64,000 bases of DNA from Thermodesulfobium sp. 4217-1 (lineage in GTDB: Bacteria > Thermodesulfobiota > Thermodesulfobiia > Thermodesulfobiales > Thermodesulfobiaceae): the NCBI RefSeq assembly GCF_039822205.1, contig NZ_JBAGBW010000006.1:20998-84997 (forward strand). Direction: 5' to 3'. A program made the translations under genes and the position numbers. The notes below the pieces were generated by a model that worked only from the letters and a program-made list of their open reading frames with translations, searched no databases and was not told the DNA's origin. How positions within the stretch are numbered: the stretch's first letter is position 1; every line of letters begins with the position of its first letter. Below, piece by piece: positions 36,520 to 57,991 of this stretch.

Positions 36520-37860
36520 TTATGTCTTTAGCCTTATCAATTTTCTCTTTGCACCATCCTTAAATAGAATTTGTAATAAATTTGAAATTGGAAAAATATA
36601 CAGATAAAATGCATAAGGGATAAAGCCATACATACTTACGCTCAAAGTTGCCGTACAAATCATTGCAGCAATATTCCAGGGTATCAAAGCTGATGTGAGT
36701 ATACAGGAATTTTCAATATCCAACGCAAATTTATACTTTCCATCTTTATGATAGCAACCCTTCATTATTTCATCTGTCATTACTACAGCAATAGACTGTG
36801 TACATCCAAAAGCAGCAGTCATAGTGCTAATAACAGTTGTCAATAGATACAGTAAAAGTCCACTCAGCTTTAATCTCATCAAATAGTTCTTTATACCCTC
36901 AAAAGCGTTTATCCCCTCAAGTATGCCTGCCAAACAACATGCAGTAAAAATAGCCATGCAAGCTTTAGACATTGACTCAATCCCACCGCCTTCCAAAATA
37001 TTCCTAAGTGGATCGAATTGTCCAAGCTTTAAACCAAACAGGATGTCCTCCAAAACCTTTACCGGATGAAGACCCTGCACAACAACAGCCACGATAGATG
37101 CCGAAATCATGCTGAGCAGCATCGCATACTTTATGTTCACTCTCAATAAAGATAAAATTAATATTATTAAGATAGGTATAAATACCACCATGCCAACGTT
37201 AAAGGACTTGTAAATCTCGCCTGTCAGGTTGTTATTGGCCAAGTCCAAAGGACTTAACTTTGAAAATTCATAATAAAAGGCAATAGACAAAAGAAATGGT
37301 AGGAGTGAAGAGTAAAGCATATTTTTTATATTTTTGAACAAGTTAGTGCCAGTCAAATTGGATACCAGGATGGCACTTGAAGACATAGGAGAACACCTGT
37401 CTCCGAAATAAACGCCCGCAATAATAGCGCCCGCAGCTAAGTTTAAGTTCACATCTCCAGATTTTGCCAGTATTATAAGCGGCAACCCCACGATACTAAC
37501 AGTACCAGTTGCAGAACCCAACAAAAAGGATGCCCCGCAGCAAATTAGGAAAGATAATAGTATGAAATCATCAGGTTTAATAAATCTAAGACTGTAATAT
37601 ACTATTCCAGGTATCGTTCCAGAAGCCATCCATGCACCAGACACTGCTCCTATAAGAAAAAGTATCTGGACGACCAATATAGATTTTTTACCGCCCTTAT
37701 ATGACATCCTATATAAATCCCTTATGGAGTAGCCTTTTTTTATGCCTATGAATACAAATATAAGCCAGCATATCAGTAGCAAGTATCCAATAAAGACGTT
37801 CATTAGGACTCCAAGGACGATAGTCAAAATTGATGCAAAAAATCCAATATAAATTTCCAT
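36520..37860 (-). CDS. nhaC: NhaC-family Na+/H+ antiporter
   Basis: About 446 residues read from ATG 37860, where AAGGA lies eight bases upstream; an in-frame ATG three codons earlier overlaps that site. The diagnostic NhaC block is AGVYFGDRCSPMSSSAILVSNLTGTN, preceded by FLLGSATGTVSIVGLP. About 11-12 hydrophobic spans. It exchanges sodium for protons across the inner membrane; some family members instead carry organic acids or arginine-like substrates. A LysR gene is divergently oriented with a repeat between them. Confidence 0.85.
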   Translation of the reverse strand: MEIYIGFFASILTIVLGVLMNVFIGYLLLICWLIFVFIGIKKGYSIRDLYRMSYKGGKKSILVVQILFLIGAVSGAWMASGTIPGIVYYSLRFIKPDDFILLSFLICCGASFLLGSATGTVSIVGLPLIILAKSGDVNLNLAAGAIIAGVYFGDRCSPMSSSAILVSNLTGTNLFKNIKNMLYSSLLPFLLSIAFYYEFSKLSPLDLANNNLTGEIYKSFNVGMVVFIPILIILILSLLRVNIKYAMLLSMISASIVAVVVQGLHPVKVLEDILFGLKLGQFDPLRNILEGGGIESMSKACMAIFTACCLAGILEGINAFEGIKNYLMRLKLSGLLLYLLTTVISTMTAAFGCTQSIAVVMTDEIMKGCYHKDGKYKFALDIENSCILTSALIPWNIAAMICTATLSVSMYGFIPYAFYLYIFPISNLLQILFKDGAKRKLIRLKT

Positions 37861-37944
37861 GAGCACCATCCTTAAAATTTATTTAGCATAAAAATTACTT
37901 ATTATTTTCAAAATAATTATAATGAGTTATTATATATATGAAAA

Positions 37945-38000: not shown

Positions 38001-38864
38001 ATGGATTTAAGACAGCTTTCTTATTTTTTAGCAATTGCAGAAGAGGGCAATATTACTAAGGCAGCTGAAAAGCTCCATATAGCTCAACCACCGCTAAGCC
38101 AGCAGCTTAAACTTCTGGAGAAAGAGCTTGGAGTAGTTCTAATAGAGAGAAGCACGCGAAAGATACAGATAACAAACGCAGGCAAACTTCTTCAGAATCG
38201 AGCAAAACAAATTCTAGAACTTGCAAAAAAAACGTCAAAAGAGCTTAGCGATCTGAAAGAAGGTCTTCAGGGCACTCTTTCGATCGGCACCATATCATCA
38301 GCAGGTGAGACTATATTGCCTTTGAAAATCAGAAGTTATCACGAAAATTATCCTGGAATAGATTTTCACATAAGAGAGGGGAGCTCATTTGAGATAATAG
38401 AGATGTTAAAAAGCGGAGTCGTTGAAATTGGCATTATACGTACGCCTATAGATCAGGATATTTTTGAATATATAAGTCTCCCAGAAGAACCTATGGTAGC
38501 AGGCGCAATTGAAAAGAAATTCTGGAACGATGAAAAAGAACAAATAGATCTTGTTGAGTTAAAGAATAAGCCTTTATTGATGCACAACAGATTCCAAAAT
38601 AATATTGAAGACGCCTGTAAAAAGGCAGGATTTGAACCCAAAATCATTTGCAGAGCTGACGATACAAGATCTATGCTCATCTGGGCTAACACAGGTATGG
38701 GCATTGCGATAATTCCAAAAGACATGACAGGTTTGTTAATGAATTCAAACATCGTATATAAAGAAATAAGAGAGAGATCTCTCTTTACAAGAGCGGTATT
38801 GTTATGGATAAAAAACCAATATCTTTCATTGCCTGCCAGGTATTTCTTGAAAATGTTTAAATAG
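38001..38864 (+). CDS. LysR-family transcriptional regulator
   Basis: A 287-residue LTTR. The winged helix-turn-helix covers residues 1-60 (FLAIAEEGNITKAAEKLHIAQPPLSQ...), followed by a linker helix and a periplasmic-binding-like effector domain starting LSIGTISSAG near residue 93. GCAGGAGG precedes the ATG. It probably controls the divergent nhaC gene and itself; the effector is unknown. Confidence 0.92.
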   Translation: MDLRQLSYFLAIAEEGNITKAAEKLHIAQPPLSQQLKLLEKELGVVLIERSTRKIQITNAGKLLQNRAKQILELAKKTSKELSDLKEGLQGTLSIGTISSAGETILPLKIRSYHENYPGIDFHIREGSSFEIIEMLKSGVVEIGIIRTPIDQDIFEYISLPEEPMVAGAIEKKFWNDEKEQIDLVELKNKPLLMHNRFQNNIEDACKKAGFEPKIICRADDTRSMLIWANTGMGIAIIPKDMTGLLMNSNIVYKEIRERSLFTRAVLLWIKNQYLSLPARYFLKMFK

Positions 38865-38939: not shown

Positions 38940-38982
38940 GGGGGGGGCTAAAAAATAAAGCCCCCTGATTTCTCAGGGGGCT
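38940..38982. terminator. Convergent terminator with two competing stems
   Basis: AGCCCCCTGA (38959-38968) and TCAGGGGGCT (38973-38982) make a 10-bp stem, followed on the minus strand by TTTATTTTTT, ending the porin gene. On the plus strand a G8 tract (38940-38947) plus CT can instead pair its GGGGGCT with AGCCCCC, giving an alternative stem for the lysR transcript. Confidence 0.85.
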
Positions 38983-38994
38983 AAAGTGTGGTTT

Positions 38995-40698
38995 TTAGAA
39001 CTTTACGTCCATCTGAATATAGTATCTTTGATCCTTGTCGATCTGATCTGGGTTAAAGGTATAGTAGGTATAATAATTGTACCCATAAATGCTCACAGCA
39101 TTAGTTTGATAGGGCTTCTTACCTTTCCAATAGTCGTAGTTAAGAGTCAGGGTTGCATTCTTTGCTACAGGGAGTGTGTAATAGACGTTGTAATAGTCTT
39201 TGTAATCAGTTGAGCCCATAGTGTTTATTATCAATGGGTTGTACCACTTGTTGTTGCCAAACCAGAAGTCACCTGTGAGGGCTCCTACTGGAAGGGGAAT
39301 GGTAGCACCAATTCTGAATGCTCCACCGCTAACAGAGCCAATGCTTGTGTAGGTGTATGGAGAAGGAGAACCTAGGAAGTTAGGTCCATAAACTCCATTT
39401 GGCATATCTGTGGATGTACCGTTGTATCCTGCCCACATATTTATGTTATAGATGTTCCAGTTTGCTATGACTGCCCATGAACTATATTTACCGTAGTTAT
39501 ATATATCATTGAGTGAGTCTGTAAACATACTAAACTTTGAAATAGAGCCATAGTCTGCCTCAAGTCCTATTGTATCAAAGAGTTTCGTCTTTAGGTTGAG
39601 GATATAGAGATCTTTGTCTTTCAAACCTTGACTCTCAGCAGTAGAGGTAACCGAGCCTGCATCAAAGAGCTTGACCCATGCAGCAGAAACTGAGGTTGAT
39701 GGAAGCATATTGCTAAGGTCAAATATCGCCATAGCTCCTTCTGTTCCTGTGTCTGCAAACAGGTTGCTGTAATATGCTCCTGAGTCCATAGTAGGAAGTC
39801 TGCCAAGTACGAAGGTTACAGGATATGGGTTCAGAGTCCATGTGATATACGATCTCTCTACATAAAGGGTGTTGCTATCGTCGTTGTAACCTGTAAGTGA
39901 TGCATAAATTGGATTACTATTAGAAGATCCATTGCTGTTTACTCCGGCATTCTTCTCCATAGTAAGCCTTGCATTGAAGGCTATGTTGTCTGCAACTGGT
40001 GCTGCAACATTTAGCCTTACCCTATAACGCATAAAAGTATTGTTCTTTGCATCGCTTTTTGCTACAGGAACACCATTTATAGCAAGATTCCCATTAGGAT
40101 CATAAAGAGTGCCATGAGGGAAGGTTCCAGACCAGTAATATCCTGCAGGATCGGTAAGTGTCCCCACGATGTATCCATTGGCAGAAGGCCCAGTAGTACT
40201 GAGCGAAACGACATTTGCATATGGAGCAGTAGGAGTATAGGAATATGGATTCAGCCCATAATATGTCGCCTTTTCGCTGCCAAATCTAAATCTTGCATCT
40301 CCTGTGAAGTTCACAGTGTCAAGAGCTGCTCGCTTCTCAAGCGCTGAAACTCTGACGTTTAGAGAAGCTAATTCTGACTTAAACTCTTCTGCTAACTTCA
40401 TAAGTGTTGCGATGTCGTTAGCATTTAACTGGATCTTTTGATCTTGTGCGTTTTGACCTTTTTCATAGGTGTCGAGCATTCTTGCAACTACCATTGCCAT
40501 CTCATAACGAGTGGCAAGTCTGTCACCTCTAAAAGTTCCGTCTCCATAACCAATGACCAATCCTTTTGCTGCTAAATCTTGCACTGCTTTGTATGCCCAA
40601 GAATTAGCTGGTACATCTGAGAATGGTCCTGCCATAGCTGGAACTGCAAGGGAGGCGATTAGTGATGCTACTACGAAAACAAAAGCTAATTTTCTCAT
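38995..40698 (-). CDS. SLH-domain outer-membrane porin (OmpM-like), copy 1
   Basis: A 567-residue envelope protein: signal peptide (1-23, VPAMA cleavage region), one S-layer-homology domain (GPFSDVPANSWAYKAVQDLAAKG... near 24-75, ending TRYEMAMVVARML), a coiled-coil spacer (about 88-130), then a C-terminal beta-barrel ending YYIQMDVKF with the terminal Phe of outer-membrane proteins. The SLH domain should grip the cell-wall polymer while the barrel sits in the outer membrane, as in OmpM of Negativicutes and Slp proteins of Thermus. It differs from copy 2 at few sites, most in aromatic, Asn/Gly-rich loop-like patches. Confidence 0.92.
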   Translation of the reverse strand: MRKLAFVFVVASLIASLAVPAMAGPFSDVPANSWAYKAVQDLAAKGLVIGYGDGTFRGDRLATRYEMAMVVARMLDTYEKGQNAQDQKIQLNANDIATLMKLAEEFKSELASLNVRVSALEKRAALDTVNFTGDARFRFGSEKATYYGLNPYSYTPTAPYANVVSLSTTGPSANGYIVGTLTDPAGYYWSGTFPHGTLYDPNGNLAINGVPVAKSDAKNNTFMRYRVRLNVAAPVADNIAFNARLTMEKNAGVNSNGSSNSNPIYASLTGYNDDSNTLYVERSYITWTLNPYPVTFVLGRLPTMDSGAYYSNLFADTGTEGAMAIFDLSNMLPSTSVSAAWVKLFDAGSVTSTAESQGLKDKDLYILNLKTKLFDTIGLEADYGSISKFSMFTDSLNDIYNYGKYSSWAVIANWNIYNINMWAGYNGTSTDMPNGVYGPNFLGSPSPYTYTSIGSVSGGAFRIGATIPLPVGALTGDFWFGNNKWYNPLIINTMGSTDYKDYYNVYYTLPVAKNATLTLNYDYWKGKKPYQTNAVSIYGYNYYTYYTFNPDQIDKDQRYYIQMDVKF

Positions 40699-40863
40699 CT
40701 TCTGATTTACCCCTTTAGGAAAATTTGTTTACTATATAAAAGCCTTCTACATGTCCTAAGCTTAATACGTAAAGCCTCCCTCCTCTTTACGAAAAATACT
40801 TAAGATAAATACAAAGATGCTTTTGTTTAAATAAAGATTAATATCTAAAAAAATATTTGTCAA
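40699..40863 (-). promoter_or_regulatory. Promoter and 5' leader of porin copy 1
   Basis: On the minus strand TTGACA (40863-40858) and TAATCT (40840-40835) are 17 bases apart, giving a leader of about 130 bases. The leader contains GTAAAG/CTTTAC (40790-40769) enclosing an AGGAGGGAGG loop, then an ATG immediately followed by TAG (40752-40747), both well upstream of the real start. The promoter block recurs before copy 2. Confidence 0.75.
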
Positions 40864-40931
40864 GAGATAATTATAAATAGAAAATATCTATTAAGAGTTT
40901 CTAAAAATCTAAAAAATTCTAAAACTTTTAC

Positions 40932-41441
40932 TTAGCTCTTTAGAATAGCAACTATTTCTCCAATATACAAGTCATGATAATCTTTATCCTTATACCACTG
41001 ATCGTCAATTTTCTTAGATGTGAAATTCTCTGGGCTAATAGGCTGACAGCACGCCTTTTTGCAAATCAAGACTTTAGAGGCCTCATCGTAATATGGGATG
41101 CCTTCGTAATGGCCAATGGTTAATCCAGATTTAGATATTTTATCCTCATTCCTCCCTGATACGCTGCCCATATAACTAAGTGATTTTTTGTATTTTTCAT
41201 GATCGAAAAATGAAAGTGAGAAACTGTCCGATCCATCGATAAACTCTTTTGTATATCTGGTCTTTCTTACAAATATGAATGCGCTGTTCTTGCCCCAGAT
41301 TACGCCCAGTCCGCCCCATGAAGCTGTCATGCTGTTTATCTTGCCTTCTTTTTCGGCTGTAATAAGCATCCAATCTTTGCCTATTATACGAAATGGGCTA
41401 AAATCAAATAAGTCAGGATCTACTAATTGAAATTTGTTCAT
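40932..41441 (-). CDS. Flavin reductase-like FMN-binding protein
   Basis: A 169-residue protein of the flavin-reductase-like split-barrel family. WMLITAEKEGKINSMTASWGG is the usual flavin-binding opening and FIFVRKTRYTKEFI follows. A cysteine cluster, CKKACC, near residue 128 is unusual and might bind metal or react with thiols. It lies beyond hutI, but 66 bases separate them, so co-transcription with hut is possible. Substrate unknown. Confidence 0.82.
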   Translation of the reverse strand: MNKFQLVDPDLFDFSPFRIIGKDWMLITAEKEGKINSMTASWGGLGVIWGKNSAFIFVRKTRYTKEFIDGSDSFSLSFFDHEKYKKSLSYMGSVSGRNEDKISKSGLTIGHYEGIPYYDEASKVLICKKACCQPISPENFTSKKIDDQWYKDKDYHDLYIGEIVAILKS

Positions 41442-41506
41442 ATATTTTTCCTCGTTTCGAAAGATAGATTTGTGTCTCTCAACTATTATATCAGTCTAAG
41501 AATAGG

Positions 41507-42769
41507 CTAACACATGCCTACCTCGCTGTCATAAACCCTCTTTCCTCTCTTATAGGTACACCACACGGGATTTACTCCGTAATGATAAGGAATAAAGATA
41601 TGGCTATTTTCTTTCAAGATTACAAAGTCTGCCTGCTTTGATATTTCGATTGACCCAATTTGCTCTTGCTTTTGGACTGCAAAAGCTGCATTGACAGTAG
41701 CTGCCGATATAGCTTCGTTCACGCTCATGCCCATATTTATTACTGCAAGAGTTATTATCATTGGCATAGATTCTGTGTAAGAGCTTCCAGGGTTGCAGTC
41801 TGTTGCAATGGCAACAGGTATGCCGTAGTCAATTATCTCTCTTGCAGGGGCATACCTCTCCCTAAGGCTAAATGCCGTACCAGGGAGCAATGTAGCAATG
41901 CTTTCGCCCATTTTTAGTGCACGAAGCCCACTTCCATTGATCTTTAACAGGTGGTCACAAGAGACCAGCCTTAATTTCTCTGCCAGTTCACTGCAGCCAA
42001 TAGCCTTTATTTCGTCAGAATGAATCTTTGCCTTAAGCCCAAGTTCGATGCCTGATAGCAAAATCTTCTCCGTTTCAGCAGGACTGAAGACGCCCTCTTC
42101 ACAGAAGACGTCTATAAAATCAGCAAGTTTGTTTTCAGCAATATAGGGCAGCATATCGTTTATCAAAAGTTCTACATATTTCTTGCTGTTGCCCTTATAC
42201 TCTTTTGGCAGAGCATGAGCCCCAAGAAAGGTGGGAATAATTTGGGCATCCCCTACATCATTTACCATCTTAATAGCCTTTAGCATCTTTATCTCGTTTT
42301 CAAAATCTAAACCATATCCGCTCTTAGCTTCAAAGGTAGTCGTCCCATATTGGAAGAAGGTCTTCACCCTTTTAGCGAGATCTGTAGCAATCTCTTCTAC
42401 CGATGCCTTTCTAATGTTTTCAACAGTGCTAAGAATCCCCCCGCCAGCCTGAAGTATTTCAATATAGGTCTTCCCCTCAAGCCTTATCCTGAACTCTTGT
42501 TCTCTTGTGCCCAGAAAAACTGAGTGCGTGTGCGGATCTACGAACCCAGGCAGCAGAGCCCTTCCCCCTACATCTACAATATCTCTTGTCACGCCTTTAT
42601 ATTTTTCTAACAAAACCTCAGTTTTGCCAATATCCTTTATTACCCCACTGTCAATTGCAATGGCTGAGTTTTCAGAAATTGATAGCTCATTCATCTCATC
42701 CTTTATTTTTGGTTTCTTAGAGCTATTTGACAGAGTATATATGTTTGCATTAATGAGCAAAAGATCCAT
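41507..42769 (-). CDS. hutI: Imidazolonepropionase
   Basis: A 420-residue amidohydrolase performing the third step of histidine breakdown, imidazolonepropionate to formiminoglutamate. FVDPHTHSVFLGTREQEF carries the metal histidines, LEGKTYIEILQAGGGILSTV is the HutI signature, and IATDCNPGSSYTESM holds the late aspartate. It begins directly after the hutU stop. Confidence 0.97.
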   Translation of the reverse strand: MDLLLINANIYTLSNSSKKPKIKDEMNELSISENSAIAIDSGVIKDIGKTEVLLEKYKGVTRDIVDVGGRALLPGFVDPHTHSVFLGTREQEFRIRLEGKTYIEILQAGGGILSTVENIRKASVEEIATDLAKRVKTFFQYGTTTFEAKSGYGLDFENEIKMLKAIKMVNDVGDAQIIPTFLGAHALPKEYKGNSKKYVELLINDMLPYIAENKLADFIDVFCEEGVFSPAETEKILLSGIELGLKAKIHSDEIKAIGCSELAEKLRLVSCDHLLKINGSGLRALKMGESIATLLPGTAFSLRERYAPAREIIDYGIPVAIATDCNPGSSYTESMPMIITLAVINMGMSVNEAISAATVNAAFAVQKQEQIGSIEISKQADFVILKENSHIFIPYHYGVNPVWCTYKRGKRVYDSEVGMC

Positions 42770-44776
42770 TTATTTCTCACCAAGCTTTTCTTTTACCGCT
42801 CTGTCAATAAGGCTGTCATCAGCTATCTGAGGAATTGTTATTGTTCCATTTTGGTCTGTGTTGTATTGCTCTGATACATCAATTGCATTTTTGTTCCTTG
42901 CCCAAGCCCTTCTTGACACACCTATCATCGCATCCCAATCCAGAGCCCTTTTTATTATCTTATCAACCCTCTCCGAGCCATCCAGCACAAGCCCAAATCC
43001 TCCGTTTATAGCCTTTCCTATTCCCACTCCTCCACCATTAGACAATACAGCCATACTCATACCGCGCGCTGCGTTACCTGCAAAGCAGTGTACTGCCATA
43101 TCAGCCATCATATTGCTGCCATCTTTGATATTCGCCGTCTCACGAAATGGCGAGTCGGTACCTCCGGTATCGTGATGATCTCTGCCCAACATTACTGGAC
43201 CTATTTCATTTTTTCTTATCATATCGTTGAACTTTAAGGCTATATCCACTCTTGTTTGGGCATCTGCATAAAGTATTCTTGCCTCTGTGCCGACTACCAG
43301 CTTATTTTCTTCCGCTGATACTATCCAGTGATAATTGTCCCTATCCTGCATCCTCCTATTTGGATCTATGATGCTTGCTGCAGCCCTGTCAGTTTTTTGT
43401 AAGTCTTTATGATCCCTCGACAAACATACCCACCTAAATGGCCCATAGCCATAATCAAAGTACATTGGTCCCATAATATCTTCCACATAAGATGGCAGAA
43501 CAAATCCCTCATCGGTGTTAACTTTGTTTAATGCCACCTCCTTAACCCCAGCGTCAAAGACTGCCTTTAGGAAGCTATTTCCATAGTCCCAAAAATAGCC
43601 GCCTCTTTGCTTGAGAATCTGAATTACATCGAAGTGTTTTTTTAGAGACTTGTTCACATACTCTTTAAACTTGGGGTGATCACTTTGTATCATCTTAATG
43701 GATTCCTCGTATGTCAAACCCTGTGGTATATATCCGCCATCATAAGGCACATGACAGGATGTTTGATCGCTGATAAGCTCAGGTTTTATATTTTTCTCAA
43801 CCATATATTCAAGTAAATCAACTATATTGCCATGATATGCTATAGATATGCTCTTCTTTGAATCAAGATACTTTTTTGCGATATCAAAAATCTCATCAAG
43901 GTCGGTGCTAATCTTGCTTACCCACCCTTGTTCATATCTGGTCTGTATTCTTGATCTCTCAACTTCAGCTATAATCCCAACTCCATTTGCTATCTCTACA
44001 GCTTTCGGTTGAGCCCCGCTCATTCCGCCCAAACCCGAGCTTACGAATAAGTGCCCAGAAAGATCCTTGTCCCAGGGAACGTCCAGAAACATCTTTGCAG
44101 CGTTCAATATTGTTATATATGTTCCGTGAACGATGCCCTGAGGACCTATATACATCCAGCCTCCAGCAGTCATCTGACCATAATTTGCCACGCCCAATTG
44201 AGCTGCTATATGCCAATCATCTGGGTTGTCGAACATGCCGACCATCATAGAGTTTGTATTTATAACTCTTGGAGCCTCTTTATGCGAAGGGAATAGACCC
44301 AGTGGGTGGCCTGACATCACTACTAAGGTCTCTTCATCTGTCATTACTTTTAGATACTCTTTCACCAATCTGTACTGCATCCAGTTTTGAAATACCTGAC
44401 CAGTTTCCCCATAAGTTACAAGCTCATAGGGGTACAAAGCTATGTCAAAGTCCAAATTGTTGTCTATCATAACCTGAAAGGCCCTGCCCTCAATTGTCTG
44501 GCCCTCATAATCGCTTATTGGCCTGCCATATATTCTGCCTTCAGGCCTGTATCTGTATCCATATATCCTGCCCCTTGTGGTCAACTCTTCCATAAATTCG
44601 GGCGCAAGCTTTTCATGCAGATGCTTTGGCACATATCTAAGCGCATTCTTAAGCGCCAATTTTGTTTGATTTAAGTTCAGATTAAAATATCTTGCCGGAG
44701 CCCGTCTGATACCATCCAGAAACTTTGGCTCCTCAGGCAAATCGTCTGGCAGACTTATCTTTCTTAAATTTGTCAT
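42770..44776 (-). CDS. hutU: Urocanate hydratase, long form
   Basis: A 668-residue NAD-dependent urocanase, longer than the roughly 555-residue enterobacterial type; this long form occurs in various anaerobes. QNWMQYRLVKEYLK, MTAGGWMYIGPQGIVHGTY, SGLGGMSGAQPKA and the C-terminal LGRDHHDTGGTDSPFRET are characteristic blocks. It hydrates urocanate to imidazolonepropionate. A 115-base gap separates it from hutH, with a possible GTCCT/AGGAC stem but no copy of the hut operator. Confidence 0.95.
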   Translation of the reverse strand: MTNLRKISLPDDLPEEPKFLDGIRRAPARYFNLNLNQTKLALKNALRYVPKHLHEKLAPEFMEELTTRGRIYGYRYRPEGRIYGRPISDYEGQTIEGRAFQVMIDNNLDFDIALYPYELVTYGETGQVFQNWMQYRLVKEYLKVMTDEETLVVMSGHPLGLFPSHKEAPRVINTNSMMVGMFDNPDDWHIAAQLGVANYGQMTAGGWMYIGPQGIVHGTYITILNAAKMFLDVPWDKDLSGHLFVSSGLGGMSGAQPKAVEIANGVGIIAEVERSRIQTRYEQGWVSKISTDLDEIFDIAKKYLDSKKSISIAYHGNIVDLLEYMVEKNIKPELISDQTSCHVPYDGGYIPQGLTYEESIKMIQSDHPKFKEYVNKSLKKHFDVIQILKQRGGYFWDYGNSFLKAVFDAGVKEVALNKVNTDEGFVLPSYVEDIMGPMYFDYGYGPFRWVCLSRDHKDLQKTDRAAASIIDPNRRMQDRDNYHWIVSAEENKLVVGTEARILYADAQTRVDIALKFNDMIRKNEIGPVMLGRDHHDTGGTDSPFRETANIKDGSNMMADMAVHCFAGNAARGMSMAVLSNGGGVGIGKAINGGFGLVLDGSERVDKIIKRALDWDAMIGVSRRAWARNKNAIDVSEQYNTDQNGTITIPQIADDSLIDRAVKEKLGEK

Positions 44777-44891
44777 TTTACTTCCTCCTAAAAATTTTTT
44801 AAGCTAAGATGTCTTATAACTTGAAAAAGTCCTTAACCTAAAAAAGCTATTTTTTAAATGTAGGACACTCTTAAGCCAACTTTTCCGTTCT

Positions 44892-46448
44892 TTAATACAG
44901 TCCGAACATAGCAGCATATTCTTCTTCTATCTTGCACTGACTGTTTACAATATCAATTAACTTGCCATCTGAGACAATCTTTCTGCCTTTTTCTATATCC
45001 TCTGAAAAAACCCTGTCTTCCTGAGTTATCTGAATATAGTCCCTAATAAAGTCATGACACCCTTCGATTACAGGACTTGATTTAAGAGGTCTTCTAAGAT
45101 CTAATCCCTGTGTCGCAAGGATCATCTCAATTGCAAGTATGTTCTCAAGATTATCAAGGATAGCGTTAAATTTTCTCATAGAAATAGAGCCCATACTTAC
45201 GTGGTCTTCTTGCCCAAGACAGGTCGGAATACTATCTGCGCTTGCAGGGAAACAAAGGCTTTTGTTCTCGCTTGCAAGAGCAGCAGATGTATATTGAAAT
45301 ATCATAAAGCCTGAATTGAGTCCTGAATTTTTTATAAGCATCTTTGGCAGGTCTTCATCGTCGCCTCCAAGCAGCAAGTAAGATCTCCTATCTGATATAT
45401 TGCCTATTTCACTTGCTGCTAATGCAGCATAATCGGCAGGAAGGGCTATGGGTTCACCGTGGAAATTGCCACCAGCTATTACGTTGTCCCTATCGATTAT
45501 CACCGGGTTATCCGTTACAGAGTTCAATTCTATGTTCAATATCTCCTTGAAATGGAGAAAACTATTTCTTGAAGCACCGTGAACCTGAGGCACACATCTG
45601 GTAGAATATGGATCCTGTACCTTTTTACAATGAACATGAGATTGTAATATTTCAGATCCCCTTAAGAATGAGCTAATTCTCTTTGCAACATAGATATTTC
45701 CTTTATAAGGCCTTAATTTGTGCAATGCCTCTTCAAATGGTTTCACTGAACCTTTAATTGTCTCGATTGACATTGCAGCAATAATGTCAGCATTTTCTAA
45801 ACAAGTATGAAATCTCTCTATGCCGTAAACTCCAAGAGCGCTCATAAATTGCGTGCCGTTTATCAGCGCAAGGCCTTCCTTTGGATGTAAATGCAATGGC
45901 TTTTTGTTAAATTTGCTAAGAATTTCAGCCCCTTTATATACCTTGCCCTCATAGAAAACACTGCCCAAACCTATAAGAGGCAAAAACAAATGAGCCAAAG
46001 GCACGAGGTCACCGCTCGCCCCCACAGATCCTTTGCTGGGGACTACAGGAATAAGATCGTTGTCTATGTGCCACATTATTCTTTCAAGGGTATCTAAAGA
46101 TACGCCAGAATACCCAAGAGCAAGCGAATTTACCTTAACTATCATCATAAGCTTTGCAATTATTGGATCAATTGGCTCTCCAACCCCGCATGAATGACTT
46201 TTCAGTATATTGTACTGCAGCTTAGCAGTCTCTTCCTTTGAAATAGTAGTGCTGCACAAAATTCCAAAACCCGTATTTATGCCGTATACAGGATCTCCCT
46301 TTTCAACGATATAGTAGATATCGTTGAAAGTTTTCTCAATATGCTGTCTTGCTGACTCGCCTATTATTCCTTTTGTTTTTCCCCTTGCAATATCTAAGGC
46401 TATCCCAATAGTCAAACTATCCTCTCCGTACTTAAAAACATTCTTCAT
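44892..46448 (-). CDS. hutH: Histidine ammonia-lyase
   Basis: A 518-residue MIO enzyme. Ala144-Ser145-Gly146 in GSVGASGDLVPLAHL form the MIO prosthetic group by self-cyclisation. YGINTGFG near residue 60, HLHPKEGLALINGTQFM and FQYTSAALASENK are the other signatures. It releases ammonia from histidine to give urocanate. Its ATG overlaps the stop of the MarR-GNAT gene by four bases, so the regulator and enzyme are translationally linked. Confidence 0.96.
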   Translation of the reverse strand: MKNVFKYGEDSLTIGIALDIARGKTKGIIGESARQHIEKTFNDIYYIVEKGDPVYGINTGFGILCSTTISKEETAKLQYNILKSHSCGVGEPIDPIIAKLMMIVKVNSLALGYSGVSLDTLERIMWHIDNDLIPVVPSKGSVGASGDLVPLAHLFLPLIGLGSVFYEGKVYKGAEILSKFNKKPLHLHPKEGLALINGTQFMSALGVYGIERFHTCLENADIIAAMSIETIKGSVKPFEEALHKLRPYKGNIYVAKRISSFLRGSEILQSHVHCKKVQDPYSTRCVPQVHGASRNSFLHFKEILNIELNSVTDNPVIIDRDNVIAGGNFHGEPIALPADYAALAASEIGNISDRRSYLLLGGDDEDLPKMLIKNSGLNSGFMIFQYTSAALASENKSLCFPASADSIPTCLGQEDHVSMGSISMRKFNAILDNLENILAIEMILATQGLDLRRPLKSSPVIEGCHDFIRDYIQITQEDRVFSEDIEKGRKIVSDGKLIDIVNSQCKIEEEYAAMFGLY

Positions 46449-47365
46449 TTCGATATTGCCTCCTTTATATATATAGCTAACATTTTTGTGCTGTCAGGAA
46501 AACTTTTCTCTCTTTCAAATTTAAACCCTCTTTCTTCAATAAATTCTCTTAACGCACTTTTGCCAGAGTCTAATTCTATAGAAGAAATTTTTTGAAGGTT
46601 GTGTTCAATATATCTTTGAGATATCAAAGTCAATATGCTGTCATCTACATCACTTCTGTCAAATAGATATAGGTTTAAAGAATCATTTTCCATTATGCCG
46701 ATAGCTGCAGCCGCAACCTCTCTATCTTTTAAGGCAAAAAGTATGTGTTCAGCATTTTTCTCTAAAGTATTTTTTAGATCGCTTACGAAATGAGGTATAT
46801 AGAAGTCATATATCCAGTGGAAGATTAGCTTTTTCAGATTGCTATAGTATTTCGGTGAAAATTTTTGAGTCGTAAACTTCGAGCTGTGAATGTGCAGGAG
46901 CACCCTTTCTGAAAGGCTAAGCTTTTCAAAAGATCTTTCAACCTCTGACAGGGCATCAAGCAAGTTTTTGCTGTGTCCCCCCTCAAGCAATATTTCGTTC
47001 ATTTTCAAACTTATCGACTTCCAAATAGGCTTTACTCTTCTTAGAAGGTCTTCACCCTTTGCTGTAAGAGAGATAACCTTCTTTCTCTTGTCGTTTTTTA
47101 TAGTATTTGCAACTATTAAATTTTTCTTTGACAGGATAAGTATAATCTGGCTAATGCCAGACAAGGTAATATCCATATTCTCAGCTATTTCGCTTAGAGT
47201 AAGGCTTTTGTGCCTGTCAAGCAAGAAAAAGATGCCAAACCAGGATGGCTCAAATTCAATCCCGCATTTTTTATAGATTTTAGAGACGTCACCCAGATAC
47301 CTATCGCTTAGCTGTTTCAATCTCGTTCCCAGTATAAGTTCCCTTGCAGAATCAAAAATTCTCAT
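46445..47365 (-). CDS. MarR-GNAT fusion regulator, candidate hut repressor
   Basis: About 306 residues read from ATG 47365, five bases after AAGGAG. Residues 1-145 form a MarR-type winged helix (LTLSEIAENMDITLSGISQIILILSKKN recognition region, KVISLTAKGEDLL wing and after). Residues about 150-306 match a GNAT acyltransferase fold, with FALKDREVAAAAIGIM and LREFIEERGFKFERE. Such fusions often control the operon they open. Here it heads hutH-hutU-hutI and has a putative operator at its own promoter, so a histidine- or urocanate-responsive repressor is a fair guess. What the acetyltransferase half binds is unknown. Confidence 0.85.
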   Translation of the reverse strand: MRIFDSARELILGTRLKQLSDRYLGDVSKIYKKCGIEFEPSWFGIFFLLDRHKSLTLSEIAENMDITLSGISQIILILSKKNLIVANTIKNDKRKKVISLTAKGEDLLRRVKPIWKSISLKMNEILLEGGHSKNLLDALSEVERSFEKLSLSERVLLHIHSSKFTTQKFSPKYYSNLKKLIFHWIYDFYIPHFVSDLKNTLEKNAEHILFALKDREVAAAAIGIMENDSLNLYLFDRSDVDDSILTLISQRYIEHNLQKISSIELDSGKSALREFIEERGFKFEREKSFPDSTKMLAIYIKEAISK

Positions 47366-47374
47366 CAAAACTCC

Positions 47375-47430
47375 TTTAGAACTTAATTAATTACTTAACT
47401 ATTTTAGAATTAATTTTTAAACTGTCAAGT
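47375..47430 (-). promoter_or_regulatory. hut promoter/operator A
   Basis: On the minus strand TTGACA (47428-47423) and TAAAAT (47406-47401) are 16 bases apart, directly followed by an AT-rich candidate operator, AGTTAAGTAATTAATTAAGT (47400-47381). The whole 56-base block is 51/56 identical to promoter B at 51103-51158. A regulator bound here would cover the -10 box and transcription start. Confidence 0.75.
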
Positions 47431-47465
47431 ACCTTATTTTTGGAAAAATATGTATAAAAAGTTAT

Positions 47466-48074
47466 CTATCCCCATATTAGCGCCCTAATAACGACAAGTT
47501 TACAGATTGACCTGTTAGCAAGCCTTATCATTTTCTCTCCAGTAGACAGTCCTGTTACGTACAGCAGATCTTTTTCCTCAATGTTGAATTTCTTTTTATT
47601 AACATCGATTTCCACACTTCCATTAAGCACATAAAAAACGTTTGTAACATTTTTACCACTACTCTCATTGATTGCTATATCAAAAACTTGTTCTTCTTCA
47701 ATAAAATAGGCTTCTAAGTCCCCTGCAAAATTGTTAGTTAGCATCAAATTAAAATCTGTTGCTTTGCCATAACTTTTTGTTTCCCAAACTCCCATAAAGC
47801 TGTCTTTATCAAATGGCCCTAATACCTTTTTGTATCTATCTTGATGTTCAAGGATAATTTTGCCATCAATAACCATAATATGTCTTGTTATGCCAGGTAG
47901 TTGGGTAAACAAAGACTTTGACGCTTCAATCTTTGCAGAACTAATTCTCCATTTAAAATTTCTTTCACTATATTTGCTGCCGTCTGGATATATCAACAAC
48001 TCTGAAGTTGTACCTCCAGACCATTTGCTGGTAATATACTTCGTACTCTTAATTAGTTCAACTTTTGTTTCCAT
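47466..48074 (-). CDS. hutD: HutD family protein
   Basis: A 202-residue bicupin HutD protein: KWSGGTTSELLIYPDGSKYSER-type opening, FKWRISSAKIE, and LPGITRHIMVIDG are family marks. In Pseudomonas HutD limits hut expression, perhaps by binding a pathway intermediate. It is the last gene of the ftcD-fchA-hutG-hutD operon, 14 bases past hutG. Confidence 0.9.
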   Translation of the reverse strand: METKVELIKSTKYITSKWSGGTTSELLIYPDGSKYSERNFKWRISSAKIEASKSLFTQLPGITRHIMVIDGKIILEHQDRYKKVLGPFDKDSFMGVWETKSYGKATDFNLMLTNNFAGDLEAYFIEEEQVFDIAINESSGKNVTNVFYVLNGSVEIDVNKKKFNIEEKDLLYVTGLSTGEKMIRLANRSICKLVVIRALIWG

Positions 48075-48088
48075 TTAGGGCTTCTCTC

Positions 48089-49108
48089 TTAGCTTTCAAT
48101 ATAGAACCCATTTATAAAGGATATAGTATTTACTAATGCAAAAATTAATACCGATGCCAAACTCGCAGTAATGTTATCCTGATCAAACCTTGGAGAAACC
48201 TCTGCCACGTCAAAGCTTATTACTTTTCCTGACTTTATAATGTGTTTTATAAACTTTATAACTTTCTCAGGATCTAATCCAAGAGGTTGTGCTGCGCTTA
48301 CTCCAGGTGCGAATGCGCTAGAAAACACATCAGCACAAATAGTTATATAGATATGATCTTGAAACTTTATAAAATCATCTAATTTCTCAAGCACACTGCA
48401 ATCGTCATTGCCAACTATATCTTTTGCTAAAATATAGTCAACTCCCAGTTTTCTGGCTGTTTTAAATAAATCGATTGTATTGCTGTGTCTTTGAACACCA
48501 ATGCAGAAATATGAGTACCCTAAACCCTTTTGGATATTTAAATCTGATATTTGCCTAAATGAGGTTCCTGAACTGCCGCCATTTGAATAAGGCCTGATAT
48601 CAAAATGAGCATCAAAATTTATTATGCCAATTTTAGGCACCTCAACACGCTGCAGCAAATGATCTAAAATGCCATTATAATGACCAAAAGCAATTTCATG
48701 GCCGCCACCCAGCACTATTGGAAAAAGATTCATATCTAATATTTTAGAAACTGCTACAGAAAGCATTTTTTGACTTTCTTCTAAGGTAGAGTTCTCACAA
48801 TATATATTCCCTGCATCGAAAAGCCCAACTTCCTCAGTAAAGCTGCAAGGTAAGTTGGCCAGTTCTTTTCTGATATAGTCAGGACCTTTACTGGCTCCTG
48901 TTCTGCCATTGTTTCTACTAATACCCTCATCGCAACAATATCCAACAAAACAAAAGCCAAATTTGCAATTACTCTTAACAGCTTCATCGTCTTGCAAATC
49001 GATATTTTTAATCCATTGATGCCATCTAAATGCGTCAAAATTATCAAGACTATCGATTCTGCCCTTCCAAACTTCTTTATCAGTTGGGCTATAATTTGCT
49101 TTAAACAT
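48089..49108 (-). CDS. hutG: Formimidoylglutamase-like arginase-family protein
   Basis: A 339-residue ureohydrolase. GGGHE and NFDAHFDIRP supply the usual metal ligands, and GTSFRQI and SAAQPLG are family blocks. In the third metal motif, usually SxDxD, the sequence is TICADVF, so the first Asp is Cys; some HutG relatives appear to share this, but it bears on manganese binding. Expected reaction: formiminoglutamate to glutamate and formamide. With FtcD/FchA also present, two routes for the same intermediate coexist in this operon. Confidence 0.88.
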   Translation of the reverse strand: MFKANYSPTDKEVWKGRIDSLDNFDAFRWHQWIKNIDLQDDEAVKSNCKFGFCFVGYCCDEGISRNNGRTGASKGPDYIRKELANLPCSFTEEVGLFDAGNIYCENSTLEESQKMLSVAVSKILDMNLFPIVLGGGHEIAFGHYNGILDHLLQRVEVPKIGIINFDAHFDIRPYSNGGSSGTSFRQISDLNIQKGLGYSYFCIGVQRHSNTIDLFKTARKLGVDYILAKDIVGNDDCSVLEKLDDFIKFQDHIYITICADVFSSAFAPGVSAAQPLGLDPEKVIKFIKHIIKSGKVISFDVAEVSPRFDQDNITASLASVLIFALVNTISFINGFYIES

Positions 49109-49238
49109 TTTTATCTCCTAATGCTCCTTCTTCTTGCCTAAATGTATTACAATTGCGTAAATTAAGTTAGACATAATATTTTTCCAGAGAAGCTATTCCT
49201 GTGCGCTCACAGTTATATTATTGGCAAACAATATTTAT

Positions 49239-49856
49239 CTATAAAGTGATTTTTGATAATATTTCTTCCTCTTTCAGCTTAACATCTCTTTCAAGCTTAC
49301 TAACTTCCTGAGCAACATTATCTACGAACTGGGTATCTTTTATCGTTGACAGGTTTATCTTTACGTTATATAGCGCCGCAAGTACCGCAGTTCTTGCCAA
49401 CATTGTTGCCACTGCAGCGTCTGTAATTGCATTTTTGTTACCCTTTTCCACCACAACTTTAATAATGTCCATCATTTTGTAAGCTTCTCTTGCCACATCC
49501 AGAGGAACTAAAGCTGCTTTTTTTGTAGCCTCTTGTATAATATTTTTTCTGTATTCTATTTTTTCATCAGAATCTTTTGGAAGTTTAAAGGCGTTCATAA
49601 CCTCATTAAAAGAATCAGCATCTTTGTCAATATATTCCACAAAAATACCCTTCAATTTATTCGCCTTTTCGGCAACAGGCTTAACTTCTTCTTGGACTTG
49701 CTCATAACCTTTTTTATCTATAGTTAAATTGCTCACCATCTGAGTTAAGGCTGCAGAAAAAGCTGCGCTTAATGCTGCAATACTTCCGCCACCTGGCACA
49801 GGCGAATTTGAAGCAGTCTCATCCAAAAAACCTACCACTGACATATTTGCTAACAT
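49239..49856 (-). CDS. fchA: Formimidoyltetrahydrofolate cyclodeaminase
   Basis: A 205-residue helical protein. TASNSPVPGGGSIAALSAAFSA-type sequence near residue 17-35 is the FTCD_C hallmark, and KNAITDAAVATMLARTAV is also conserved. It converts 5-formimino-THF to methenyl-THF and ammonia. GGAGG precedes the ATG. Following ftcD, the two give the bacterial split form of the mammalian FTCD enzyme. Confidence 0.93.
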   Translation of the reverse strand: MLANMSVVGFLDETASNSPVPGGGSIAALSAAFSAALTQMVSNLTIDKKGYEQVQEEVKPVAEKANKLKGIFVEYIDKDADSFNEVMNAFKLPKDSDEKIEYRKNIIQEATKKAALVPLDVAREAYKMMDIIKVVVEKGNKNAITDAAVATMLARTAVLAALYNVKINLSTIKDTQFVDNVAQEVSKLERDVKLKEEEILSKITL

Positions 49857-49938
49857 AATATTCCTCCTTATTTGCTTTTAAATACTTAAACAACTCTTTT
49901 TTAGTAAATTTATAACTTTCAATTTGTTTATAATAAAA

Positions 49939-50844
49939 TTATTCCATAATTCTGGTTTCGAGAATCTGATCCATAGAAAAGTCTTCAACCCCAAGATAAT
50001 AAACTGCAGTGTCAATCATTGCCTCCATTGGCAAAAGTCCAATTATTTCAGTTCCCACCACATTAACTCCATATCTTCTAGCTTCCATTTTAACTAGCTC
50101 ATAAGATCGATAAAGAGCGGTCTTTGTAAAGTCAGTCATATTCATAGATACCTGAACTATGCCTCTCTCTTTTAACTCCACGCCAAGAGCCTTGCAGTAT
50201 CTCAATCCACCGCCTGTAAACCTAACGTTCTTAGCAATTTTGTTTGCAATTTCTAAGTTATTTGTATCTAAATTCACATTAAAGGCTATTAATGGCATCC
50301 TCACACCTACAGCAGTAACCCCAGCAGTTGGATGCACTTTAGCATCACCATAATCAGGGATCCATTCAGGCTGGGTCATCTTTTGATTCATTCCTTCGAA
50401 TTCGCCTTTTCTAATATTTGAAAGGTTCTCTCTTTGGGGGTTTGTGGCTGCTTTTTCATATAGAAATATTGGAAGACTATATCTTTCCCATGCCTCTTTA
50501 GCTGTCTCTTTTGCAAGTTCTATAGCTTCTTCTACGCTAACATTTTTTATTGGAATATAAGGCACTACATCACAAGCACCCATCCTTGGGTGCTGCCCTT
50601 TGTGAGCCCTTAAATCTATAACGTCAATAGCTACTCCAATTGCTTCTAAAACTGCACTCTTAACGATCTCTGGTTCTCCCACTACGGTTACTACCAGCCT
50701 ATTGTGATCCTTATCTCCCTTGTAATCTAAAAGATTTAAACCATCTTTGCCTCTGAAAGGACTGACAATTTGTTCTATTTTGTCAAGATCCCTGCCTTCG
50801 CTAAAGTTAGGTACACACTCAATTAATTTCTTTACACTTTTCAT
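49939..50844 (-). CDS. ftcD: Glutamate formimidoyltransferase
   Basis: A 301-residue FTCD N-terminal-type protein starting MKSVKKLIECVPNFSEGRD. I use ATG 50844 because GGTGGAG lies five bases before it and the family begins there; the frame stays open another 44 codons upstream but that stretch is non-homologous and overlaps a better small ORF. LRAHKGQHPRMGACDVVPYIP and HPTAGVTAVGVRMPLIAFN are hallmarks. It transfers the formimino group from formiminoglutamate to THF. Confidence 0.94.
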   Translation of the reverse strand: MKSVKKLIECVPNFSEGRDLDKIEQIVSPFRGKDGLNLLDYKGDKDHNRLVVTVVGEPEIVKSAVLEAIGVAIDVIDLRAHKGQHPRMGACDVVPYIPIKNVSVEEAIELAKETAKEAWERYSLPIFLYEKAATNPQRENLSNIRKGEFEGMNQKMTQPEWIPDYGDAKVHPTAGVTAVGVRMPLIAFNVNLDTNNLEIANKIAKNVRFTGGGLRYCKALGVELKERGIVQVSMNMTDFTKTALYRSYELVKMEARRYGVNVVGTEIIGLLPMEAMIDTAVYYLGVEDFSMDQILETRIME

Positions 50845-50897
50845 GTCAACTCCACCCATCCATTCTGTATAATACTTGAAACAAATATCTATTTTTA

Positions 50898-51053
50898 TTA
50901 ATATCTCGACAATATTGCATCTAAGCAAAACCCACCAATAATCAGAGTTGTGATATCCATGCTGCAAGCAATGCAAACAGCAAAGAGACCGCTTGATTTA
51001 CCATGTCCCCAATCTTTAGATGCCAAATCAATGCTTCTTACTTCAATCTTCAT
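50898..51053 (-). CDS. Hidden 51-residue ORF heading the ftcD operon
   Basis: ATG 51053 lies eight bases after GGAGA and opens 51 codons ending at TAA 50900-50898. The product starts MKIEVRSIDLASKDWGHG, then SSGLFAVCIACSMDITTL, then IIGGFCLDAILSRY; three cysteines and a hydrophobic second half suggest a membrane or metal-binding micro-protein. It is the first frame after hut promoter B and 53 bases before ftcD. A longer frame in another phase covers it and would mask it in routine annotation. Unrecognised; a leader peptide is also possible. Confidence 0.55.
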   Translation of the reverse strand: MKIEVRSIDLASKDWGHGKSSGLFAVCIACSMDITTLIIGGFCLDAILSRY

Positions 51054-51072
51054 TTTAGATATCTCCATTAAT

Positions 51073-51158
51073 AAGTAAGTTAAGTATTTGAATTACTTAT
51101 TTTTTAGAACTTAATTAATCACTTAACTATTTTAGATCTAATTTTTTAACAGTCAAGT
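51073..51158 (-). promoter_or_regulatory. hut promoter/operator B
   Basis: TTGACT (51156-51151) and TAAAAT (51134-51129) on the minus strand are 16 bases apart, followed by AGTTAAGTGATTAATTAAGT (51128-51109), matching promoter A. A second related dyad, AAGTA-7-TACTT, lies further downstream near 51080-51099 and is absent from promoter A. It sits directly upstream of the 51-codon ORF and ftcD. Confidence 0.75.
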
Positions 51159-51231
51159 GTTTTTATTTTTACAAGGGAGTTTAGTAAAGAAGGAATTTTT
51201 TCACTTACAGATTAAAGCCTTTCTAACTAAA

Positions 51232-51255
51232 AGCCCCCTGATTTCTCAGGGGGCT
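51232..51255 (-). terminator. Terminator of porin copy 2
   Basis: AGCCCCCTGA (51232-51241) and TCAGGGGGCT (51246-51255) form the same 10-bp stem as at copy 1, followed on the minus strand by TTTTAGTTAG. The T tract is shorter than at copy 1. Confidence 0.8.
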
Positions 51256-51267
51256 GAAGTGAAGTTT

Positions 51268-52995
51268 TTAGAACTTTACGTCCATCTGAATATAGTATCT
51301 TTGATCCTTATCAACTTGATCTGGGTTAAAGGTATAGTAGGTATAATAATTGTACCCATAAATGCTGCCAGCATTAGTTTGATAAGGCTTCTTACCTTTC
51401 CAGTAGTCGTAGTTAAGAGTCAGGGTTGCATTCTTTGCTACAGGGAGAGTGTAATAGACGTTGTAGTAGTCTTTGTAATCAGTTGAGCCCATAGTATTTA
51501 TTATCAATGGATTATACCACTTGTTGTTGCCAAACCAGAAGTCGCCTGTGAGGGCTCCTACTGGAAGGGGAATGGTAGCACCAATTCTGAATGCTCCACC
51601 GCTAACAGAGCCAATGCTTGTGTAGGTGTATGGAGAAGGGGAAACAAATCCAGACATATTTAAAGGTCCAGAAACTCCATTTGGCATATCTGTAAATGTA
51701 CCGTTGTATCCTGCCCACATATTTATGTTATAGATGTTCCAGTTTGCTATGATTGCCCATGAACTATATTTACCATAGTTATAGTTATATATATCGTTAT
51801 CAGTATCTGAATATGGGAACATACTAAACTTTGAAATAGAGCCGTAGTCTGCCTCAAGTCCTATTGTGTCAAAGAGTTTCGTCTTTAGGTTGAGGATATA
51901 GAGATCTTTGTCTTTCAAACCTTGACTCTCAGCAGTAGAGGTAACCGAGCCTGAATCAAAGAGCTTTACCCATGCAGCTGAAACTGAGGTAGACGGAAGC
52001 ATATTGCTAAGATCAAATATAATCATTCCACCCTCTGTACCTGTGTCCATAAACAGGTTGCTGTAATATGCACCTGAATCCATGGTAGGAAGTCTACCAA
52101 GGACGAAGGTTACGGGATATGGGTTAAGAGTCCATGTGATGTAAGATCTCTCTACATAAAGGGTGTTGCTATCGTCGTTGTAACCTGTAAGTGATGCATA
52201 AATTGGATTACTATTAGAAGATCCATTGCTGTTTACTCCGGCATTCTTCTCCATAGTAAGCCTTGCATTGAAGGCTATGTTGTCTGCAACTGGTGCTGCA
52301 ACATTTAGCCTTACCCTATAACGCATAAAAGTATTGTTCTTTGCATCGCTTTTTGCTACAGGAACACCATTTATAGCAAGATTCCCATTAGGATCATAAA
52401 GAGTGGTGCCATGAGGGAAGGTTCCAGACCAGTAATATCCTGCAGGATCGGTAAGTGTCCCCACGATGTATCCATTGGCAGAAGGCCCAGTAGTACTGAG
52501 CGAAACGACATTTGCATTTGGAGCAGTAGGAGTATGGGAATATGGATTCAGCCCATAATATGTCGCCTTTTCGCTGCCAAATCTAAATCTTGCATCTCCT
52601 GTGAAGTTCACAGTGTCAAGAGCTGCTCGCTTCTCAAGCGCTGAAACTCTGACGTTTAGAGAAGCTAATTCTGACTTAAACTCTTCTGCTAACTTCATAA
52701 GTGTTGCGATGTCGTTAGCATTTAACTGGATCTTTTGATCTTGTGCGTTTTGACCTTTTTCATAGGTGTCGAGCATTCTTGCAACTACCATTGCCATCTC
52801 ATAACGAGTGGCAAGTCTGTCACCTCTAAAAGTTCCGTCTCCATAACCAATGACCAATCCTTTTGCTGCTAAATCTTGCACTGCTTTGTATGCCCAAGAA
52901 TTAGCTGGTACATCTGAGAATGGTCCTGCCATAGCTGGAACTGCAAGGGAGGCGATTAGTGATGCTACTACGAAAACAAAAGCTAATTTTCTCAT
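51268..52995 (-). CDS. SLH-domain outer-membrane porin (OmpM-like), copy 2
   Basis: A 575-residue near-twin of the protein at 38995-40698, with the same signal peptide, SLH domain, coiled coil and terminal DVKF. Differences cluster: TGTEGGMIIFD for TGTEGAMAIFD, an extended MFPYSDTDNDIYNYNYG loop, GVSGPLNMSGFVSPSP for GVYGPNFLGSPSP, and a few single changes. The first about 140 residues are the same. This is the pattern of a recent duplicate kept uniform in its anchor while its loops drift. Confidence 0.92.
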   Translation of the reverse strand: MRKLAFVFVVASLIASLAVPAMAGPFSDVPANSWAYKAVQDLAAKGLVIGYGDGTFRGDRLATRYEMAMVVARMLDTYEKGQNAQDQKIQLNANDIATLMKLAEEFKSELASLNVRVSALEKRAALDTVNFTGDARFRFGSEKATYYGLNPYSHTPTAPNANVVSLSTTGPSANGYIVGTLTDPAGYYWSGTFPHGTTLYDPNGNLAINGVPVAKSDAKNNTFMRYRVRLNVAAPVADNIAFNARLTMEKNAGVNSNGSSNSNPIYASLTGYNDDSNTLYVERSYITWTLNPYPVTFVLGRLPTMDSGAYYSNLFMDTGTEGGMIIFDLSNMLPSTSVSAAWVKLFDSGSVTSTAESQGLKDKDLYILNLKTKLFDTIGLEADYGSISKFSMFPYSDTDNDIYNYNYGKYSSWAIIANWNIYNINMWAGYNGTFTDMPNGVSGPLNMSGFVSPSPYTYTSIGSVSGGAFRIGATIPLPVGALTGDFWFGNNKWYNPLIINTMGSTDYKDYYNVYYTLPVAKNATLTLNYDYWKGKKPYQTNAGSIYGYNYYTYYTFNPDQVDKDQRYYIQMDVKF

Positions 52996-53161
52996 CTTCT
53001 GAATTACCCCCTTTAGGAAATTTTGTTTACCATATAAAAGCCTTCTACATATCTTAAGCTTAATACGTAAAGCCTCCCTCCTCTTTCTAAAGAATGCTTA
53101 AGATAAATACAAAGATGCTTTTATTGAAATAAAGATTAATATCTAAAAAAATATTTGTCAA
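52996..53161 (-). promoter_or_regulatory. Promoter and 5' leader of porin copy 2
   Basis: TTGACA (53161-53156) and TAATCT (53138-53133), spacing 17, mirror copy 1. The leader is similar but diverged: the AGGAGGGAGG tract and the ATG-TAG start-stop pair are kept, while the left arm of the GTAAAG hairpin has changed and only a 4-bp AAAG/CTTT pairing remains. Confidence 0.72.
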
Positions 53162-53231
53162 GTGCCATTGATGTAATTGTAAAAAGACAATTCTAAGCAG
53201 ACTATTTATGATAGGGTATCATTGAAGAGAC

Positions 53232-56686: not shown

Positions 56687-57991
56687 TTAAGCTTTTAGTT
56701 TTCTCTTGTCTATCACCCTCTTTGCCTTGCCGCTCGATCTCTCTATGCTCTTTGGCTCGACCAACCTAAGCTTGACGTCAATTCCAAGTACTGATTTTAG
56801 CTTATGAGTCAGGGTTCTGTCCATCTCGACAAGAGATCTCATCTTGTCCTGGAATATGTCATCTGAAATCTCAACAAAGACTTCTATGGTATCCAGGTGA
56901 TTTCTCCTATCAAGAACTATCTGATAGTGAGGCAATACACCCTGAGTGCTTATTAGCACCTCTTCTATCTGTGAAGGAAATACGTTTACACCTCTGATAA
57001 TAAGCATATCATCCGTTCGACCCTTAATCTTGCCTATTCTTGCCATAGTTCTGCCGCATCCGCAGGGCTCTTCGATAAGATACGTGATGTCTCTTGTCCT
57101 ATATCTGATGATGGGTAGCGCCTCTTTCGTAAGAGAGGTAATTACGAGCTCTCCAACTTCGCCAGGCTCTACAGGCTCTAAGGTCTCTGGGTCTATGATC
57201 TCCACCAGGAAATGATCCTCCCAGATGTGCATCCCAACCTTTAGCTGACACTCCCCAGCTACTCCTGGACCTATCAGCTCAGATAAGCCATAGTTATCGG
57301 TGGCAATGACCCCAAGCGTCCCCTCCAACTCCTTCCTTATCTCCTCTGTCCACGGCTCAGCCCCAAAAAATCCCACTCTTAATTTCAGATCCTCTTTGCC
57401 AATACCCATTTCCTTCATAACTTCTGCCAGATGAAGACTGTAGGAAGGGGTGCCAATGATAGCCGTAGTGCCAAAATCTTTCATAAGATTTATCTGCCTT
57501 TCACTGTTACCCACAGAGGTAGGGATAACCGTAGCCCCTATTTTCTCAGCCCCATAGTGCATGCCAAGGCCACCTGTAAAAAGACCATATCCCAAAAAAT
57601 TTTGAACCTTGTCGTCGTGTCTTAACCCACCTGCATACAGCACCCTTGCAGAAAGCTCAGCCCAGGTCTGTAAGTCCCTTGCTGTATAGCCTACTACAGT
57701 GGGCTTTCCAGTAGTCCCGCTTGATGCGTGAAGCCTCACCACATCGCGCTCGGGCACGGCAAAGAGTCCAAAAGGATAGGTGTCTCTCAGATCCTGCTTA
57801 ACTGTGAATGGAAATTTTGCAAAATCTTCAAGAGTCCTTAGATCTTTTAAAGAAAGTCCCTTTTCTTCAATCTTTTCTCTATAAAATTTTACATTCTCCC
57901 AAACCCTTGAAAGAACTCCTCTCAATCTTGAAAGCTGTAAATCCTTGATCCTCTTCCTTGGCATACATTCATAATCAGGGTTAAATATCAT
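56687..57991 (-). CDS. paaK: Phenylacetate-CoA ligase-like protein 1
   Basis: A 434-residue AMP-forming ligase of the PaaK type. [16 protein letters not shown] (near 80) is the phosphate loop, [17 protein letters not shown] the adenylation motif, and [14 protein letters not shown] and [10 protein letters not shown] mark the PaaK C-terminus. It forms aryl-acetyl-CoA from aryl acetate, ATP and CoA. A second paralogue opens the operon, and IorAB, which makes the same thioesters from aryl pyruvates, lies between. Confidence 0.93.

Follow-up and report, generated by a model that had tools for sequence, protein, structure and literature searches.

The locus described here raises the question of what two near-identical porin units, A and B, mean for the block of histidine utilization (hut) genes that they enclose in Thermodesulfobium sp. 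4217-1. The porin-hut-porin arrangement is far beyond chance, and the initial annotation read it as the duplication of exactly one transcription unit, through which the hut genes could be excised or amplified so that histidine use becomes a mobile or dosage-variable trait. The window, i.e. the whole stretch of 64 kb that was analysed, comes from a 2.0-Mb draft genome of 69 contigs (G000). It was compared with three genus mates, one genome per species: G001 and G003, both closed and of one contig each, and G002, a draft metagenome bin (BP4.bin65). Flank similarity pairs G000 with G002 and G001 with G003, the short right flank alone being weaker on the G001/G003 pairing. The features referred to below, in positions of the window, are the following.

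36520-37869, minus strand: NhaC-like antiporter (none in G001, a relic in G003)
38001-38864, plus strand: LysR-type regulator (missing at the equivalent site of G001 and G003)
38957-40863 (about), minus strand: porin unit A, spanning terminator through -35 box (repeat search, alignment, hairpin)
38959-38982, minus strand: porin A terminator hairpin
38995-40698, minus strand: SLH-porin A, 567 aa, with signal peptide, SLH domain, coiled coil and DUF3373/predicted beta-barrel
40932-41441, minus strand: flavin-reductase-like protein
41507-42769, minus strand: hutI, imidazolonepropionase (TIGR01224 above cutoff)
42770-44776, minus strand: hutU, urocanate hydratase (TIGR01228 above cutoff)
44892-46448, minus strand: hutH, histidine ammonia-lyase (TIGR01225 above cutoff)
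46445-47368, minus strand: MarR-type regulator extended at its C-terminus (the extension reads as GNAT-like), gene 1 of the hutHUI operon
47375-47441, minus strand: 67-nt promoter block 5' of marR-hutHUI
47466-48074, minus strand: hutD (PF05962)
48089-49108, minus strand: hutG, formimidoylglutamase (TIGR01227 above cutoff)
49239-49856, minus strand: fchA-like formiminotransferase-cyclodeaminase (FTCD_C)
49939-50976, minus strand: ftcD, glutamate formimidoyltransferase
51103-51169, minus strand: 67-nt promoter block (85% identical to 47375-47441) 5' of the ftcD-fchA-hutG-hutD operon
51230-53161 (about), minus strand: porin unit B, spanning terminator through -35 box (repeat search, alignment, hairpin)
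51232-51255, minus strand: porin B terminator hairpin, its stem-loop identical to that of porin A
51268-52995, minus strand: SLH-porin B, 575 aa, mostly of A-type sequence
52012-52050, minus strand: porin B codons 316-328, with old B-locus bases kept (matching G002 contig C138 and G001)
52996-53161, minus strand: porin B leader and promoter, nearer to the single porin of G001 than to porin A

Units A and B are direct repeats, both on the minus strand and about 12.3 kb apart (spacing 12,273-12,298); they align over 1,904 bases with 96.1% identity (74 mismatches, 33 gap columns) and have a longest exact run of 466 nt. Identity is unevenly distributed along the units (permutation p = 0.0002) and forms a mosaic, codons 1-283 being near-identical and the differences clustering in later codons. 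A matching strong terminator hairpin closes the 3' end of each unit, and the homology ends just upstream of the TTGACA hexamer (-35 box). The initial annotation was thus right in placing near-identical direct units around the island, with all hut genes between the copies, and in drawing the repeat from the terminator to the -35 box. Leader and terminator are, moreover, common to both units and the single porin of G001, and another porin, on contig C3 of G002, has this leader too, beginning with the -35 box, so that the unit boundaries correspond to the limits of homology within the family and not to one copying event. The further claim, that exactly one transcription unit was duplicated, fails, because the promoter-proximal region of B and several of its internal sites keep B-locus ancestry, as found in G001 and G002.

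Both proteins show an SLH domain (PF00395) at residues 25-68 (E 8e-12) and, by eye, a signal peptide; a DUF3373 match covers residues 218-306, and the SomB porin model scores below its cutoff. The nearest solved structures obtained with phmmer are the OmpM-type chains 8bys and 8bym and SlpA (7zgx), which match only over residues 3-154, and the AlphaFold prediction for porin B, from an eight-sequence input, has a mean pLDDT of 38, too low for a fold search. The term porin is a well-founded family assignment, and the function is a predicted one. A and B are members of an OmpM-like family of SLH porins that has about eight loci in each genome of the genus. OmpM has been described as outer-membrane tether and general porin, and has several paralogues in Veillonella (PMC10628300), a multiplicity per genome that is found here as well; also shared, with Veillonella OmpM1-4 and Deinococcus SlpA, is the layout in which an N-terminal SLH domain is followed by a coiled-coil-like segment and, by prediction, a C-terminal barrel. 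Unlike OmpM and SlpA, the present family has a predicted barrel of DUF3373-like type, is larger (about eight loci) and displays conversion between loci. Individual porin units appear and disappear within the genus, since the porin on G002 C3 (L054 2216-4367), located between TetR-like and TtcA-like genes, is missing from the empty site on G000 contig C17 (5878-5958, L081). A precise mobile porin cassette, considered from this same comparison, was rejected, as the boundaries are not sharp and the unit has its own terminator. It should also be noted that another porin of the window genome (L060, G000 C2, 7376-9103) carries an internal TAG stop.

Neighbouring genes establish the porin loci, about eight per genome, as orthologous across the four genomes, and the paralogues A and B within G000 are closer to each other than are same-position orthologues across genomes. 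Third-position identity between A and B is 100% in codons 1-130, 94% in codons 131-320 and 86% in codons 321-575; between the A-position and B-position porins of G002, the latter assigned from one contig (C138), it is 67% in codons 131-320 and 57% in codons 321-575. Porin B is 59-79% identical at third positions to the G002 porin of its own position, and 76-84% to the G002 porin of the A position. The sequences show the likeness of A and B to have arisen after the split from G002, the nearest sequenced relative. Twelve informative coding differences between A and B fit a pattern in which A equals the G002 A-position porin and B equals both the G002 B-position porin and G001, and the reverse pattern is found 0 times (p = 0.0005); eight of the 12 fall in codons 316-328 and the others are scattered later. 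The leader of B matches G001 at 164 of 174 sites and that of A at 154 of 173, and upstream of the -35 box B is the same as G001 and A differs. Trees built on segments disagree with each other, consistent with a mosaic B. Judged from sequence, locus B is old, with its promoter and position in common with G001.

The presence of A-type sequence over most of B, together with residual B-locus bases, argues for gene conversion and not for a fresh duplication. RecA-type gene conversion would have copied A-type sequence into B, an old locus that would have been mostly overwritten, with the leader, the stretch of codons 316-328 and a scatter of sites further along the gene being spared; the direction, from A to B, rests on a few dozen sites. 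The best account, to which we assign a probability of roughly 80%, is that A and B are old loci in concerted evolution, with A-type conversion into B, and that the hut genes were inherited vertically in the lineage of G000 and G002, with no sign that the porins move or dose them. Conversion seems to be a habit of this porin family, since near-identical pairs also occur at unlinked loci of G001 (534/630; L071 and L070) and G003 (585/1434; L053 and L057), with third-position identities of 94-100%. Gene conversion has been described as a cause of concerted evolution among prokaryotic paralogues (PMC6053082), and the outer-membrane genes homA and homB of Helicobacter are a gene-conversion case (PMC2795765); these resemble the A/B pair in that paralogues within a genome are closer than positional orthologues and in their mosaic tracts. 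The difference lies in the SLH porin family and the deep-branching genus in which conversion is seen here, and in the literature searched we found no description of gene conversion in SLH porins of the A/B kind. The pair clearly exemplifies gene conversion among the OmpM-type porins of a deep-branching bacterial genus, and loop exchange between loci could alter porin properties while the peptidoglycan-binding end stays uniform.

Concerning the site in the relatives, that of G001 consists of an MFS transporter, a single porin and then the genes that in the window come after porin B, with no hut genes, NhaC antiporter or LysR gene; HutU and HutH are found nowhere in the complete genomes of G001 and G003. 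The G003 site (L064, genome positions about 1405800-1406720) contains what is left of the antiporter, namely its 3' end, together with part of the 5' end of a porin and, directly before the right flank, a porin 3' end and its terminator; a stretch between the relics reads like a transposase end. This relic order is expected from two porins in direct orientation and a subsequent deletion of most of the region, a rearranged single porin being a possible alternative. Two contigs of G002 are collinear with the window, one carrying porin-LysR-NhaC-MFS and the other porin-ftcD-fchA-hutG-hutD-marR-hutH-hutU; they break inside porins, and we infer the linkage of the A-position and B-position contigs. 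Neither the G001 site nor the G003 site is a simple product of crossover between A and B, and no clean presence or absence with one leftover repeat is seen at them, both sites differing outside the repeats too. As to why the block is absent from the G001/G003 lineage, either the site was remodelled by larger deletions or it was never filled.

The block between the porins comprises hutI, hutU, hutH, the MarR-type regulator gene, hutD, hutG, the fchA-like gene and ftcD, plus the flavin-reductase-like gene, and it qualifies as a hut pathway by matches above curated cutoffs to TIGR01225, TIGR01228, TIGR01224, TIGR01227 and TIGR02024. It resembles known hut operons in having hutH, hutU, hutI, hutG, hutD and ftcD/fchA, and is unlike them in its MarR-type regulator with a C-terminal extension and in harboring the HutG route as well as the formiminotransferase route, alternative final steps of histidine degradation that lie together at 48089-50976. 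The sites most like promoters in the two hut operons lie in the two 67-nt blocks, which are kept in G002 and could serve the MarR-type regulator as an operator. HutU has 81% amino acid identity to its counterpart in G099, a genome from another lineage, which suggests past hut transfer between distant bacteria; the G099 cluster (L088 4499-12359) comprises a MarR-type gene, related to the regulator gene of the window and next to hutH, as well as hutG, hutU and hutI, with no SLH-type porin beside it. Genes that read like a branched-chain amino-acid transporter stand with this cluster. The GC content of the hut block (0.35-0.41) falls within the values of the surrounding DNA; composition thus gives no sign of recent import. 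Most likely the hut enzymes reached the genus from elsewhere in the more distant past: either they came to lie between two porins already in place in the G000/G002 lineage, or they are older and were lost in G001 and G003. No paper covering this case of hut transfer was found in the literature searched.

Whether the block moves through its flanking repeats has to be judged against the same data. Had one porin unit been duplicated recently around hut, so as to form a switch that by recombination excises or amplifies the block and renders it mobile or dosage-variable, the direct repeats, with their long exact run, would be good RecA substrates, and G001 would literally be the one-porin, hut-free relative that the initial annotation predicted. 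G001, however, is also without the antiporter and the LysR gene, which lie outside the repeats, the G003 relic order is unlike the outcome of an A x B crossover, and B retains its residual ancestry. Furthermore, the third-position identity of the hut genes to G002 (81.5-87.3%) lies within that of the flanking genes (73-91%), which indicates stable joint inheritance since the G000/G002 split, and the coverage of the G002 hut contig is about 1.05x the median for the six further G002 porin contigs that have a coverage value in their names. We therefore regard this reading as improbable. The repeat geometry does suit RecA-type exchange, and excision or amplification through the repeats is mechanistically possible, but neither was seen in the genomes compared, and the divergence and coverage values give no sign of mobility or dosage change. 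That the converted pair serves as a reversible switch, in which rare A x B crossovers remove or multiply hut and make histidine use phase- or dosage-variable, appears more improbable still. An island based on a tRNA or an integrase was also considered and rejected: no integrase or transposase occurs among the ORFs between the porins, and no tRNA in the window.

An incoming circle or fragment with a porin and hut genes could instead have recombined with a resident porin by a single crossover of the Campbell type, an event compatible with later gene conversion, and the single porin of G001 where G000 has porin-hut-porin, as well as the similarity of HutU to that of another lineage, would agree with it. 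The differences from G001 extend, though, to NhaC and LysR outside the repeats; besides an antiporter relic G003 keeps two pieces of porin, and a two-porin site may therefore be older than hut; and the hut genes of G099 adjoin no such porin. We consider this origin rather unlikely. It is hardly credible that the arrangement is an assembly artefact joining two porin loci falsely through their near-identical 5' halves. The draft state of G000, the several G000 and G002 contigs that end inside porins and the 466-nt run, which could hide a misjoin, speak for it; against it, both outer flanks adjoin in the closed G001 and G003, and G002 independently has LysR beside one porin 3' end and ftcD beside another. 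On the preferred reading of old, converted porin loci around vertically inherited hut genes, the A/B pair illustrates that repeats of near identity on either side of a gene block are no proof that a duplication is recent or that an island is mobile.

A final point of notice is that the window holds a further paralogous pair, at 56687-57991 and 60859-62169, resembling phenylacetate-CoA ligases and about 70-80% identical in parts.
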